This document shows positions 9,320-11,630 of a DNA stretch of 64,000 nucleotides, one piece after another. The stretch lies in the NCBI GenBank assembly GCA_021734325.1, contig JAIPJF010000011.1, positions 1-64,000 on the forward strand, given 5' to 3'. The position numbers were made by a program, and so were the translations under genes. The stretch comes from Fidelibacterota bacterium (GTDB lineage: Bacteria; Fidelibacterota; UBA8477; JABMPR01). Each line of letters opens with the position of its first letter. Position 1 is the stretch's first letter. The notes beneath the pieces were generated by a model. It was not told where the DNA came from. It saw nothing but the letters and a program-made list of their open reading frames with translations, and did no database searches.

Positions 9320-9775
9320 ATGATAGCTGTGATTCAGCGGGTGAGTTCAGGTGAGGTAAAGATCGAGGGCCGATCGCGGGGCAAGATCGGTCAGGGTCTG
9401 GTTATACTCCTCGGTGTTGCTGATGATGATGGAATCCGTGATGCCGATTGGTTGGTGGAAAAGATCGTCGGACTGCGTGTTTTTGAGGACAGTCAAAACA
9501 AAATGAACCTCTCCCTCCAGGATGTCGGTGGCAGCGCCCTGGTCATATCACAGTTCACCCTCCTCGCCGACTACAAGCGGGGACGTCGGCCGGGATTCAC
9601 TGGAGCAGCCAGACCGGAGAAAGCCATTCCCCTATATGAATACTTCATGGATCAGCTCTGGAGAAAGGATATCCAGGTTGAAAAGGGTGAGTTCGGTGCT
9701 GACATGCAGGTGCATATCATGAATGAAGGTCCGGTTACCTTGGTACTGGATAGCACGGTCAAGTTTCCCAGATAG
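9320..9775 (+). CDS. dtd: D-aminoacyl-tRNA deacylase
   Basis: Hydrolyses D-amino acids from mischarged tRNA in the cytoplasm. I chose the ATG at 9320 (MIAVIQRVSSGEV), which gives 151 residues and the family N-terminus; the longer track start adds nine unrelated residues. Diagnostic motifs are SQFTLLADYKRGRRP, where the SQFTL strand lines the active site, and NEGPVTL near the C-terminus, the Gly-cisPro motif that reads chirality. It stands alone on the plus strand; its stop lies only 4 bp from the first 202-bp repeat, whose first hairpin may serve as its terminator. Confidence 0.95.
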   Translation: MIAVIQRVSSGEVKIEGRSRGKIGQGLVILLGVADDDGIRDADWLVEKIVGLRVFEDSQNKMNLSLQDVGGSALVISQFTLLADYKRGRRPGFTGAARPEKAIPLYEYFMDQLWRKDIQVEKGEFGADMQVHIMNEGPVTLVLDSTVKFPR

Positions 9776-9778
9776 GTT

Positions 9779-9980
9779 TTTCTCACGCCCCGCTGGGGCG
9801 TATTTTTCAGGATAGTTCTGTGGTTTAAACATTCGCGCTACGCTGTAGCGCAGAGAGGTGCTCTCGGTAAAGACTTCTGTGTATTTTCAAGCTGCGACGT
9901 ACTCTGGACTCCGAAGGAGTCCAACACCTCGAACACCAGAAATCACCTTGATCATAACTCTACAGCGTAGCGTGATAAAA
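9779..9980. repeat. 202-bp hairpin-rich direct repeat, left copy
   Basis: This copy matches 10521-10722 at all but four positions. Hairpins in order are ACGCCCC-GCT-GGGGCGT followed by TATTTTTC, which looks like a terminator; GCGCTAC-GCT-GTAGCGC; GGACTCC-GAA-GGAGTCC; and a final CTACAGCGTAGCG that is the reverse complement of part of the second hairpin. The gap between copies is filled by the transposase gene. Confidence 0.93.
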
Positions 9981-9984
9981 AGGT

Positions 9985-10437
9985 CTAGTCTTCCAAGTAT
10001 TTCTGAGCATAGTCAATACCATATTGCTTCAAATACTTGAGGTACTCATTCATGTATGTAACTTTTTTGTGATGTTCTTTTTGATTGGCTATATATTGAA
10101 CAACACGATCAACGCTATGGTGATCGCATGAGAAAGCGCCAAAGCCAATTTGCCACCTGAATCGACCACGCGTTAGATGTCTCTCGTTGATCATACGGGA
10201 AGATTCTGATTTTATTTCTCTCATCAGGTCTGACAATGACTTCGACGGATTTTGCGCTAGGAGCAAGTGTATATGATCTGATATCCCATTGATCCTGATC
10301 GGTATATGCCCCTGGTTTTTTATTATTGCCCCTATATATCCATACAGTTCATCCTCTAACTCAGTTTTAATTTTTGGATAGCCTCTTTTGGTACGGATTA
10401 CAACATGAACGTACAGGCGTGTATACGTATTCGCCAT
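9985..10437 (-). CDS. IS200/REP-associated Y1 (HUH) transposase
   Basis: The 150-residue protein has the full TnpA core: the N-terminal strand LYVHVVIRTKRGYP, the HUH motif as H55-I-H57 (SDHIHLLL), the WQIGFGAFS segment and the catalytic tyrosine Y115 in QYIANQKEHH. Such enzymes cut and join single-stranded DNA at hairpins. No TnpB partner is present, as in IS200 and in REP-associated (RAYT) genes. The start at 10437 has GGGAG upstream. It is flanked on both sides by nearly identical 202-bp palindrome-rich repeats, 4 bp beyond its stop and about 80 bp before its start. All key residues are intact, so it may be active. Confidence 0.93.
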   Translation of the reverse strand: MANTYTRLYVHVVIRTKRGYPKIKTELEDELYGYIGAIIKNQGHIPIRINGISDHIHLLLAQNPSKSLSDLMREIKSESSRMINERHLTRGRFRWQIGFGAFSCDHHSVDRVVQYIANQKEHHKKVTYMNEYLKYLKQYGIDYAQKYLED

Positions 10438-10520
10438 TATAAACTCCCGGTTGATTGGTTTCTGTGAATTGTTATTTCAGATCTGGAAAGATAGTCTGCA
10501 ACCACTTTCAGCAAAAAGCA

Positions 10521-10722
10521 TTTCTCATGCCCCGCTGGGGCGTATTTTTCAGGATAGTTCTGTGGTTTAAACATTCGTGCTACGCTGTAGCGCAGAGAGG
10601 TGCTCTCGGTAAAGACTTCTGTGTATTTTCAAGCTGCGACGTACTCTGGACTCCGAAGGAGTCCAACACCTCGAACACCAGAAATCACCTTGATCATAAC
10701 GCTACAGCGTGGCGTGATAAAA
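10521..10722. repeat. 202-bp hairpin-rich direct repeat, right copy
   Basis: Same orientation as the copy at 9779, offset exactly 742 bp. Four substitutions distinguish it: C to T in the first hairpin, C to T in the second (giving a G-T wobble), T to G before the last hairpin, and A to G within it. The track frame at 10455-10757 crosses this repeat and is not a gene. Confidence 0.93.
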
Positions 10723-10799: not shown

Positions 10800-11630
10800 A
10801 TGTCACAGATAGGTAGGATGAATACCCTGCGAGTTATGCGGGAGGTCGAGTTTGGTGTTTATCTGGACGGCGAAGAGCTTGGTGACATCCTTCTGCCCAA
10901 ACGCCAGGTTCCCCAGGGGACCAAGGTCAATGACCTGGTCGAGGTCTTTCTCTATTTCGATTCCAGCGATCTTATCATCGCCTCCACCAAAAAGCCCCAT
11001 GCCCAGATTGATGAGTTTGCCAATCTACGGGTCGTGGAAAATAATAAGATGGGCGCTTTTATGGATTGGGGACTGCCCAAGGATCTCCTGGTCCCATTCC
11101 GGGAACAACGACACAAGATGATGCAAAACCAGAAATACATTGTTCGCATCTATCTGGACAAGGTCAGTAATCGCATTGTGGCCAGCACCAAACTGGACAA
11201 GTTCCTGAGCCAGGCAAAACCGCCCTATAAATCAGGGGATAAGGTGGATCTGTTCATCACCATGCAGACCGATCTGGGATATAAGTGTATTGTTGATGAA
11301 AAATTTTGGGGCCTGCTTTATAAGGACCAGGTCTTCAAAGCCCTTGAACAGGGTCAGAGTCTAAAAGGCTTTATCCGGCAGATCCGACCGGATGGGAAGA
11401 TTGATCTCAGCATCAATGATCCGGAGAATCTTAATCTGGACCAGGCGAGTCAGAAGATTCTGGATGTACTCAAAGCCAATAAGGGCTTTCTGCCCATGAC
11501 GGACAAAACCCGTCCTGAAGTAATCTATGAAAAATTCGGGATCAGCAAGAAGATCTTTAAACGCTCTCTGGGTGGGCTTTACAAAAAACGACTGGTCAAA
11601 TTGGAGTCAAAAGGAATCCGCCTGCTTTAG
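10800..11630 (+). CDS. CvfB-like S1-domain RNA-binding protein
   Basis: The 276 residues match the CvfB/YitL architecture: three S1-like OB folds (about 5-60, 70-135 and 140-205) with phrases such as GVYLDGEELGDILLPKRQVP, GAFMDWGLPKDLLVPF and LGYKCIVDEKFWGLLY, then a winged-helix C-terminus (FLPMTDKTRPEVIYEKFGISK). In Gram-positive bacteria the family affects virulence gene expression through RNA; in this lineage the role is unknown. It acts in the cytoplasm. It is monocistronic, downstream of the repeat/transposase unit. Confidence 0.9.
   Translation: MSQIGRMNTLRVMREVEFGVYLDGEELGDILLPKRQVPQGTKVNDLVEVFLYFDSSDLIIASTKKPHAQIDEFANLRVVENNKMGAFMDWGLPKDLLVPFREQRHKMMQNQKYIVRIYLDKVSNRIVASTKLDKFLSQAKPPYKSGDKVDLFITMQTDLGYKCIVDEKFWGLLYKDQVFKALEQGQSLKGFIRQIRPDGKIDLSINDPENLNLDQASQKILDVLKANKGFLPMTDKTRPEVIYEKFGISKKIFKRSLGGLYKKRLVKLESKGIRLL

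Follow-up and report, generated by a model that had tools for sequence, protein, structure and literature searches.

A subclass 1.2 Y1 transposase gene between direct copies of a multi-hairpin module: a probable REPtron-like unit

The tnpA gene located between dtd and cvfB in the window (the whole 64,000-nt stretch of DNA analyzed here) is bracketed by two direct copies of a 202-bp module rich in hairpins. The whole is probably a REPtron-like unit, in which a single-strand DNA transposase of subclass 1.2 is paired with its cognate multi-hairpin module, present as two direct copies. Judged from the sequences compared, hairpin modules flank subclass 1.2 members in several phyla, with constrained spacing, conserved feet, covarying stems and solitary copies, and in three species of the window's genus the transposase sits, together with its hairpins, at a different locus each time. 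An earlier note on this DNA had proposed an unusual REP-type or IS200-derived unit, in which a large structured module had been copied to both sides or the whole 742-bp unit might be a duplication intermediate. This proposal is supported in part: the unit is probably of REP type, its transposase is related to that of IS200, and a large structured module stands on either side of the gene. The arrangement had also been suspected to be undescribed; indeed, motif and topic searches of the open-access literature found no description of these modules.

The repeat pair was re-measured by sequence comparison within the window. Two copies of 202 nt each, 98% identical, in the same orientation and offset by exactly 742 bp, enclose an intact Y1/HUH gene and differ at four positions (8, 58, 181 and 191 of the repeat), just as had been claimed. 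Since four mismatches separate the copies, a simple assembly duplication is disfavored. The statement that the gene fills the gap did not hold exactly: tnpA sits between the copies and covers 453 of the 540 bp separating them, leaving 4 bp between its stop codon and copy 1 and about 83 bp between its start codon and copy 2. When the 64-kb window was searched for gene-sized gaps bracketed by direct repeats of at least 60 bp, this was the sole hit (1 of 125 positions). The features of the locus are listed below.

9323..9775, plus strand: dtd (D-aminoacyl-tRNA deacylase), left neighbor
9779..9980, minus strand: hairpin module copy 1, on the 3' side of tnpA, oriented with the gene
9785..9801: H1 of copy 1, ACGCCCC-GCT-GGGGCGT
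9823..9832, minus strand: foot-like motif ATGTTTAAAC (gene orientation) beside H2, partial match to the family foot ATRTTTATAG
9835..9851: H2 of copy 1, GCGCTAC-GCT-GTAGCGC, 33 nt from H1
9905..9923: H3 of copy 1, TGGACTCC-GAA-GGAGTCCA
9958..9972: H4, weak in copy 1, separated from H3 by about 34 nt; the first structure met past the end of tnpA
9985..10437, minus strand: tnpA, Y1/HUH transposase of 150 aa with the TnpAY1 subclass 1.2 signature (HIH at 55-57, Y115, YIANQKEHH)
10521..10722, minus strand: hairpin module copy 2, on the 5' side of tnpA, same orientation, 98% identical to copy 1
10527..10543: H1 of copy 2, one pair changed
10577..10593: H2 of copy 2, one pair changed
10647..10665: H3 of copy 2, identical to copy 1
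10700..10714: H4 of copy 2, CGCTAC-AGC-GTGGCG, six pairs including one wobble
10800..11630, plus strand: CvfB-like S1-domain protein gene (cvfB), right neighbor

The three hairpins with loops GCT, GCT and GAA noted before are real (H1, H2 and H3). The half-palindrome described as the inverse of the second hairpin corresponds to H4, which forms a 6-bp stem with one wobble in copy 2 but has just four perfect pairs in copy 1. Folded as single-stranded DNA, copy 1 reaches -36.6 kcal/mol against a shuffled mean of -23.4 kcal/mol (z -4.3; 0 of 200 shuffles). The foot of the window module is a partial motif only (ATGTTTAAAC), and the module has no mirror symmetry, unlike many modules of the family. 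The four differences between the copies (window 9786, 9836, 9959 and 9969, and the same positions +742) all fall inside H1, H2 and H4, two being C/T, one T/G and one A/G on the plus strand (n = 4), with zero differences in the spacers and H3.

The dtd-cvfB gene order is conserved across the window's genus. No tnpA was present in the eight dtd-cvfB intervals read in genus relatives, and the interval is too diverged among them to reveal the exact target junction. In the genus member G006 this interval (L119 721-860 and 1176-1315) carries two direct copies, 140 nt each and 96% identical, of another multi-hairpin block, with no transposase between them. H1 followed by TATTTTT (window 9785-9807) is a candidate transcription terminator that could serve dtd, so that insertion after dtd may be harmless. 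Scans of the locus with Rfam and with PADLOC returned zero matches, and a plasmid search for the 202-bp module found none.

The window TnpA matches Pfam Y1_Tnp (E = 7.5e-25) and scores 68.5 bits with the NCBIfam IS200/IS605 model NF033573, above the cut-off of 55, and 32 bits with REP_Tyr_transpos, far under the cut-off of 80. Its motifs WQ, DHIH and YIANQKEHH and its 150 aa agree with the protein criteria for subclass 1.2 given by Quentin et al. 2018 (PMC6006769), namely Y---Q--HH, a W-Q motif, HuH, YIKNQKEHH, DH[IV]H and about 148 aa. The YxxxQxxHH signature occurs in 85 of 86 homologs, and the catalytic H55, H57, Y115 and Q119 are invariant among 39 aligned members. The best Foldseek matches of the AF2 model (pLDDT 90.7) were ISDra2, IS608 and the REP transposase 4er8; because fold and catalytic residues are shared with IS608/ISDra2, the window TnpA would be expected to perform the same chemistry. 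Comparison between the genus orthologs gave pN of 0.18-0.23 against pS of 0.84-0.98, with synonymous sites near saturation, hence tnpA is intact and evidently under purifying selection.

In the published survey (PMC6006769), subclass 1.2 is found mostly in Cyanobacteria and Bacteroidetes, has low copy number and low identity between copies, is scored 'no' for REP and is generally without IS200-type structures. The genes studied here share with it the protein signature, the low copy number and the diverged copies, but differ in that structured modules flank them; they were also found in Ignavibacteriota, Cloacimonadota and the window's phylum. The flanking hairpins, feet and direct repeats run counter to the published absence of REP-like or IS-like structures, and because subclass 1.2 is defined by protein criteria, we read that absence as a survey gap.

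Four tnpA copies are present in the window's genome, the paralogs being 28-37% identical to the window protein. One of them (L004, G000:C8:97752) is interrupted by an in-frame stop and has CCCATGAT-TTAA-ATCATGGG palindromes at its flanks; another (L005, G000:C24:16626) is flanked by a 38-bp direct repeat.

An ordinary IS200-type insertion sequence, in which the 202-bp copies would be long ends and the whole unit would transpose as one IS, appears unlikely, even though much is held in common with IS200/IS605 elements (subclass 1.1: IS200, IS608, ISDra2). The sequence is of IS200 type (NF033573), and the fold is closest to, and shared with, that of IS608 and ISDra2 TnpA (Foldseek); HUH/Y1 chemistry is predicted for the window protein as well, TnpA is the only protein, hairpins lie near both gene ends and terminal inverted repeats are absent. 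Moreover, in three genus members orthologs are found at different loci with hairpins right past the stop codon. The window unit differs in its low copy number and diverged paralogs and in that the window gene has no TnpB seen next to it. IS200/IS605 elements are expected to occur as near-identical copies at more than one site; such copies are missing from the window's own genome (an 84% complete MAG), where no identical second copy was found and the paralogs are only 28-37% identical. IS200/IS605 ends are single subterminal hairpins, whereas those here are 202-bp multi-hairpin direct repeats, and such modules also exist solitary, free of the gene. A true IS200-type element, detected in G117, behaves otherwise, with 629-bp copies that are 99.7% identical, a few lone hairpins and no module arrays.

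Further copies of the exact 202-bp module were found neither in the window's own genome nor in 99 relatives; as the former is an 84%-complete MAG, a module copy may have been overlooked. A match of module positions 152-181 to G021 (L015; E = 0.003) was rejected, since with 100 genomes searched it looks like chance. Orthologs of the window tnpA (about 66% identity) occur in two other species of the genus at unrelated loci, and in both of them GCGCTAC-NNN-GTAGCGC lies 13 nt past the stop codon, followed 32-34 nt further on by CTCC-NNN-GGAG. A pattern search placed the core hairpin GCGCTACNNNGTAGCGC (H2 type) in exactly 3 of 19 genus genomes, once in each and always beside tnpA. These are the three genomes with a tnpA ortholog, at three different loci; it is therefore the transposase, rather than the insertion site, that the hairpins accompany.

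Within the window's own genome, a paralogous transposase gene (C3:8961-9374) lies between direct repeats, of 140 bp and 79 bp, that belong to a different module with the hairpins AACCGT..ACGGTT and CACCCAAC..GTTGGGTG. Further copies of this module lie at C1:30477, C35:178832, C14:75772 and C3:413/635; some have compensated stems, e.g., CACCCGAC..GTCGGGTG and CACCTGAT..ATCAGGTG, and the order is mirrored (A-B-B'-A'). The earlier note had taken many solitary copies at varied sites as support for a transposase-mobilized repeat family, and a lack of other copies in the genome and its relatives as evidence against one. The outcome is divided: the window's exact module occurs nowhere else, but the module of the C3 paralog is solitary at several sites of the same genome, and the core hairpin accompanies a tnpA ortholog in two more genus members at other loci.

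The sample for the subclass-wide analysis comprised 86 subclass 1.2 genes from Bacteroidota, Ignavibacteriota, Cloacimonadota, other groups and the window's genus; 80 of them are outside homologs found by peptide patterns of the window protein, which biases the sample toward closer relatives of that protein. Hairpins (stem of at least 6 bp, loop of 3-5 nt) beside these 86 genes reach 8.9 per kb on the 3' side and 5.4 per kb on the 5' side against about 1 per kb in dinucleotide shuffles, with enrichment of about ninefold and about fourfold, respectively, and the density is back to background by about 900 bp from tnpA. Neighboring hairpins are most often 33-37 nt apart (the gap is 30-37 nt in 136 of 380 pairs), and in the window module it is 33 nt for H2-H1 and about 34 nt for H4-H3. 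The hairpins near subclass 1.2 genes often carry a foot motif, RTTTATAG or TTGTAG, next to them. The foot T[TA]T[AG]TAG was counted in 126 flanks from 51 loci, mostly 4-6 nt after the stem, against 16 in shuffles.

A perfect stem directly precedes the site in 139 of 196 AT[AG]TTTATAG occurrences, in comparison with 4 in shuffles and 35 in two-element chimeras. These sites were picked blind to structure, which makes the test of covariation unbiased, and since 72 distinct hairpins precede them, the stems covary. Covariation counted on units preselected for perfect hairpins was discarded as circular, and the foot-site test was used instead. The type of footed hairpin nearest tnpA had no clear polarity. 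Foot type tracks the TnpA tree (18 changes versus 35 shuffled), a relationship confounded with taxonomy.

Direct repeats of at least 60 bp and at least 80% identity on both sides of tnpA were found at 20 of 75 testable loci, and inverted ones at none; among the distal control blocks such direct repeats occurred in 2 of 128 pairs. The repeat sequences vary from locus to locus. Long flanking direct repeats thus mark about a quarter of the loci, not all, and some loci are hairpin-poor. These counts bear on a quite improbable alternative, according to which local recombination duplicated an intergenic hairpin block around the gene by chance and the transposase has no role. It is favored by the confinement of the exact 202-bp module to the window locus (own genome and 99 relatives) and by the dtd-cvfB interval of G006, whose 140-nt direct repeats (96%) without tnpA indicate that direct duplication can occur without the gene present. 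A chance event accounts poorly for direct bracketing by unrelated sequences in 20 of 75 loci, 0 inverted, versus 2 of 128 distal pairs, for hairpin enrichment centered on the gene, and for the co-occurrence of core hairpin and gene in the genus.

The typical unit in Bacteroidota and Ignavibacteriota is about 120 bp long and consists of an outer hairpin with an inward foot, a central CGACCCC-NNN-GGGGTCG and a second outer hairpin with its foot likewise pointing inward. Solitary copies of this unit were seen in Flavobacterium and Ignavibacteriales, and Mongoliibacter has it in a tandem array. The central hairpin CGACCCCNNNGGGGTCG was found at 75 sites in 15 of 22 genomes, in which the reversed control pattern had zero matches. 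At one Flavobacterium intergenic site, the orthologous positions in other species are empty, carry a different unit or carry several. The array of Mongoliibacter ruber (L167, G105:C20:33000-36000) has about ten three-hairpin units in tandem with a 27-nt linker. It contains no transposase, the subclass 1.2 tnpA being located about 10 kb from it.

Of the CGACCCCNNNGGGGTCG sites, 24 of 75 lie within 1 kb of a subclass 1.2 tnpA against 0.15 expected. This excess of about 160 times makes it very unlikely that the modules belong to another REP transposase of the same genomes, e.g., of subclass 2.6, and merely cluster near subclass 1.2 genes. Atypical secondary structures have been reported for subclass 2.6 in Bacteroidetes (Quentin 2018, PMC6006769), but the foot type tracks the subclass 1.2 tree, and core hairpin and tnpA co-occur in the window's genus. 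Least probable is that the hairpins serve the gene and its neighbors at the RNA level, as intrinsic terminators or mRNA stabilizers, rather than as transposase substrates: the tnpA stop codon is often followed by a hairpin after only a few nt and a T run follows H1 reading out of dtd, but the T run precedes H4, next to the tnpA stop, instead of following it, both gene sides are enriched with a fixed 33-37-nt spacing and a foot motif, multi-hairpin copies stand solitary elsewhere and Rfam gave no match.

The preferred REPtron-like reading takes as its model the TnpAREP/RAYT with its REP/REPIN of E. coli and Pseudomonas (subclasses 2.2, 2.4, 2.5, 2.7 and 2.8). Both systems have a low-copy Y1 transposase flanked by palindromes, as seen at the window tnpA; in both, a hairpin bears a short conserved foot, and transposase and repeat track each other. 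REPtron palindromes are dispersed in the genome; here the module of the C3 paralog and modules in other genomes are dispersed too, but the window module was found only at its own locus. The window TnpA is of class 1 (Y---Q, YIANQ), whereas REPtron transposases are of class 2 (Y---NP), a motif missing here together with the 5' GTAG at the stem, the window foot being ATGTTTAAAC. Most feet of the family resemble TTTATAG and are set 4-6 nt away from the stem, in contrast to GTAG directly at the stem, on its 5' side, in REPtrons. The modules also differ in their 120-200 bp, three to four hairpins and 33-37-nt spacing, and in bracketing the gene as long direct repeats.

Several observations fit the REPtron-like reading less well. 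The exact 202-bp module has no solitary copy (84% complete MAG, relatives searched), the window module combines a partial foot with no mirror symmetry, long flanking direct repeats occur at a quarter of the loci and hairpins are few at some, foot type and TnpA tree are confounded with taxonomy, and the homolog sample is skewed by the peptide-pattern search to the nearer relatives of the window protein. Cleavage, binding and transposition by subclass 1.2 TnpA are what we infer.

TnpA of IS608 and ISDra2 recognizes subterminal hairpins in single-stranded DNA and cuts at sites selected by guide tetranucleotides that lie next to the hairpin (PMC8266576); TnpAREP has been proposed to select its cleavage sites likewise, with GTAG (PMC8266576). 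By analogy, a dimer of the window TnpA may bind a hairpin on single-stranded DNA (the lagging-strand template or repair intermediates), with the adjacent foot guiding the choice of cut, so that footed hairpins would be both recognition and cleavage sites. Tyr115 would nick the strand and TnpA would rejoin it. Modules, and less often a module plus the gene, could be copied to new places via single-stranded intermediates. That bracketing is direct only suggests two possible routes: a module-plus-gene circle (742 nt here) might integrate into or next to a resident module, or a tandem module array might expand around the gene.

With confidence evenly divided, we propose that subclass 1.2 transposases and their multi-hairpin modules constitute a class of REP-like mobile DNA that is widespread in Bacteroidota and neighboring phyla but has so far gone undescribed. 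Such a class would have a recognition rule of its own (a hairpin with an offset TTTRTAG foot, at a spacing of 33-37 nt) and would propagate so that the gene ends up flanked by long direct copies of the module, e.g., when a single-stranded circle of module plus gene inserts into a module already resident. The survey (PMC6006769) assigns subclass 1.2 neither a function nor a DNA partner; if the modules are substrates, both would be supplied. A lineage near the true IS200 transposases would then have gained a REP-type lifestyle independently of the class-2 RAYTs, and the domestication of insertion-sequence transposases into repeat-movers could be tested with paired single-strand substrates. A large set of short intergenic palindromes in Bacteroidota would be explained as well.

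Two further repeats were noticed in the Flavobacterium genomes (L178-L199). A second unit, present in many copies per genome, has four hairpins with GCTTC/GCTCC/GCTCC/GCTTC stems and TTTATAG-like feet. Separate from it is a frequent inverted repeat, AAACCCGACAGGTTT.
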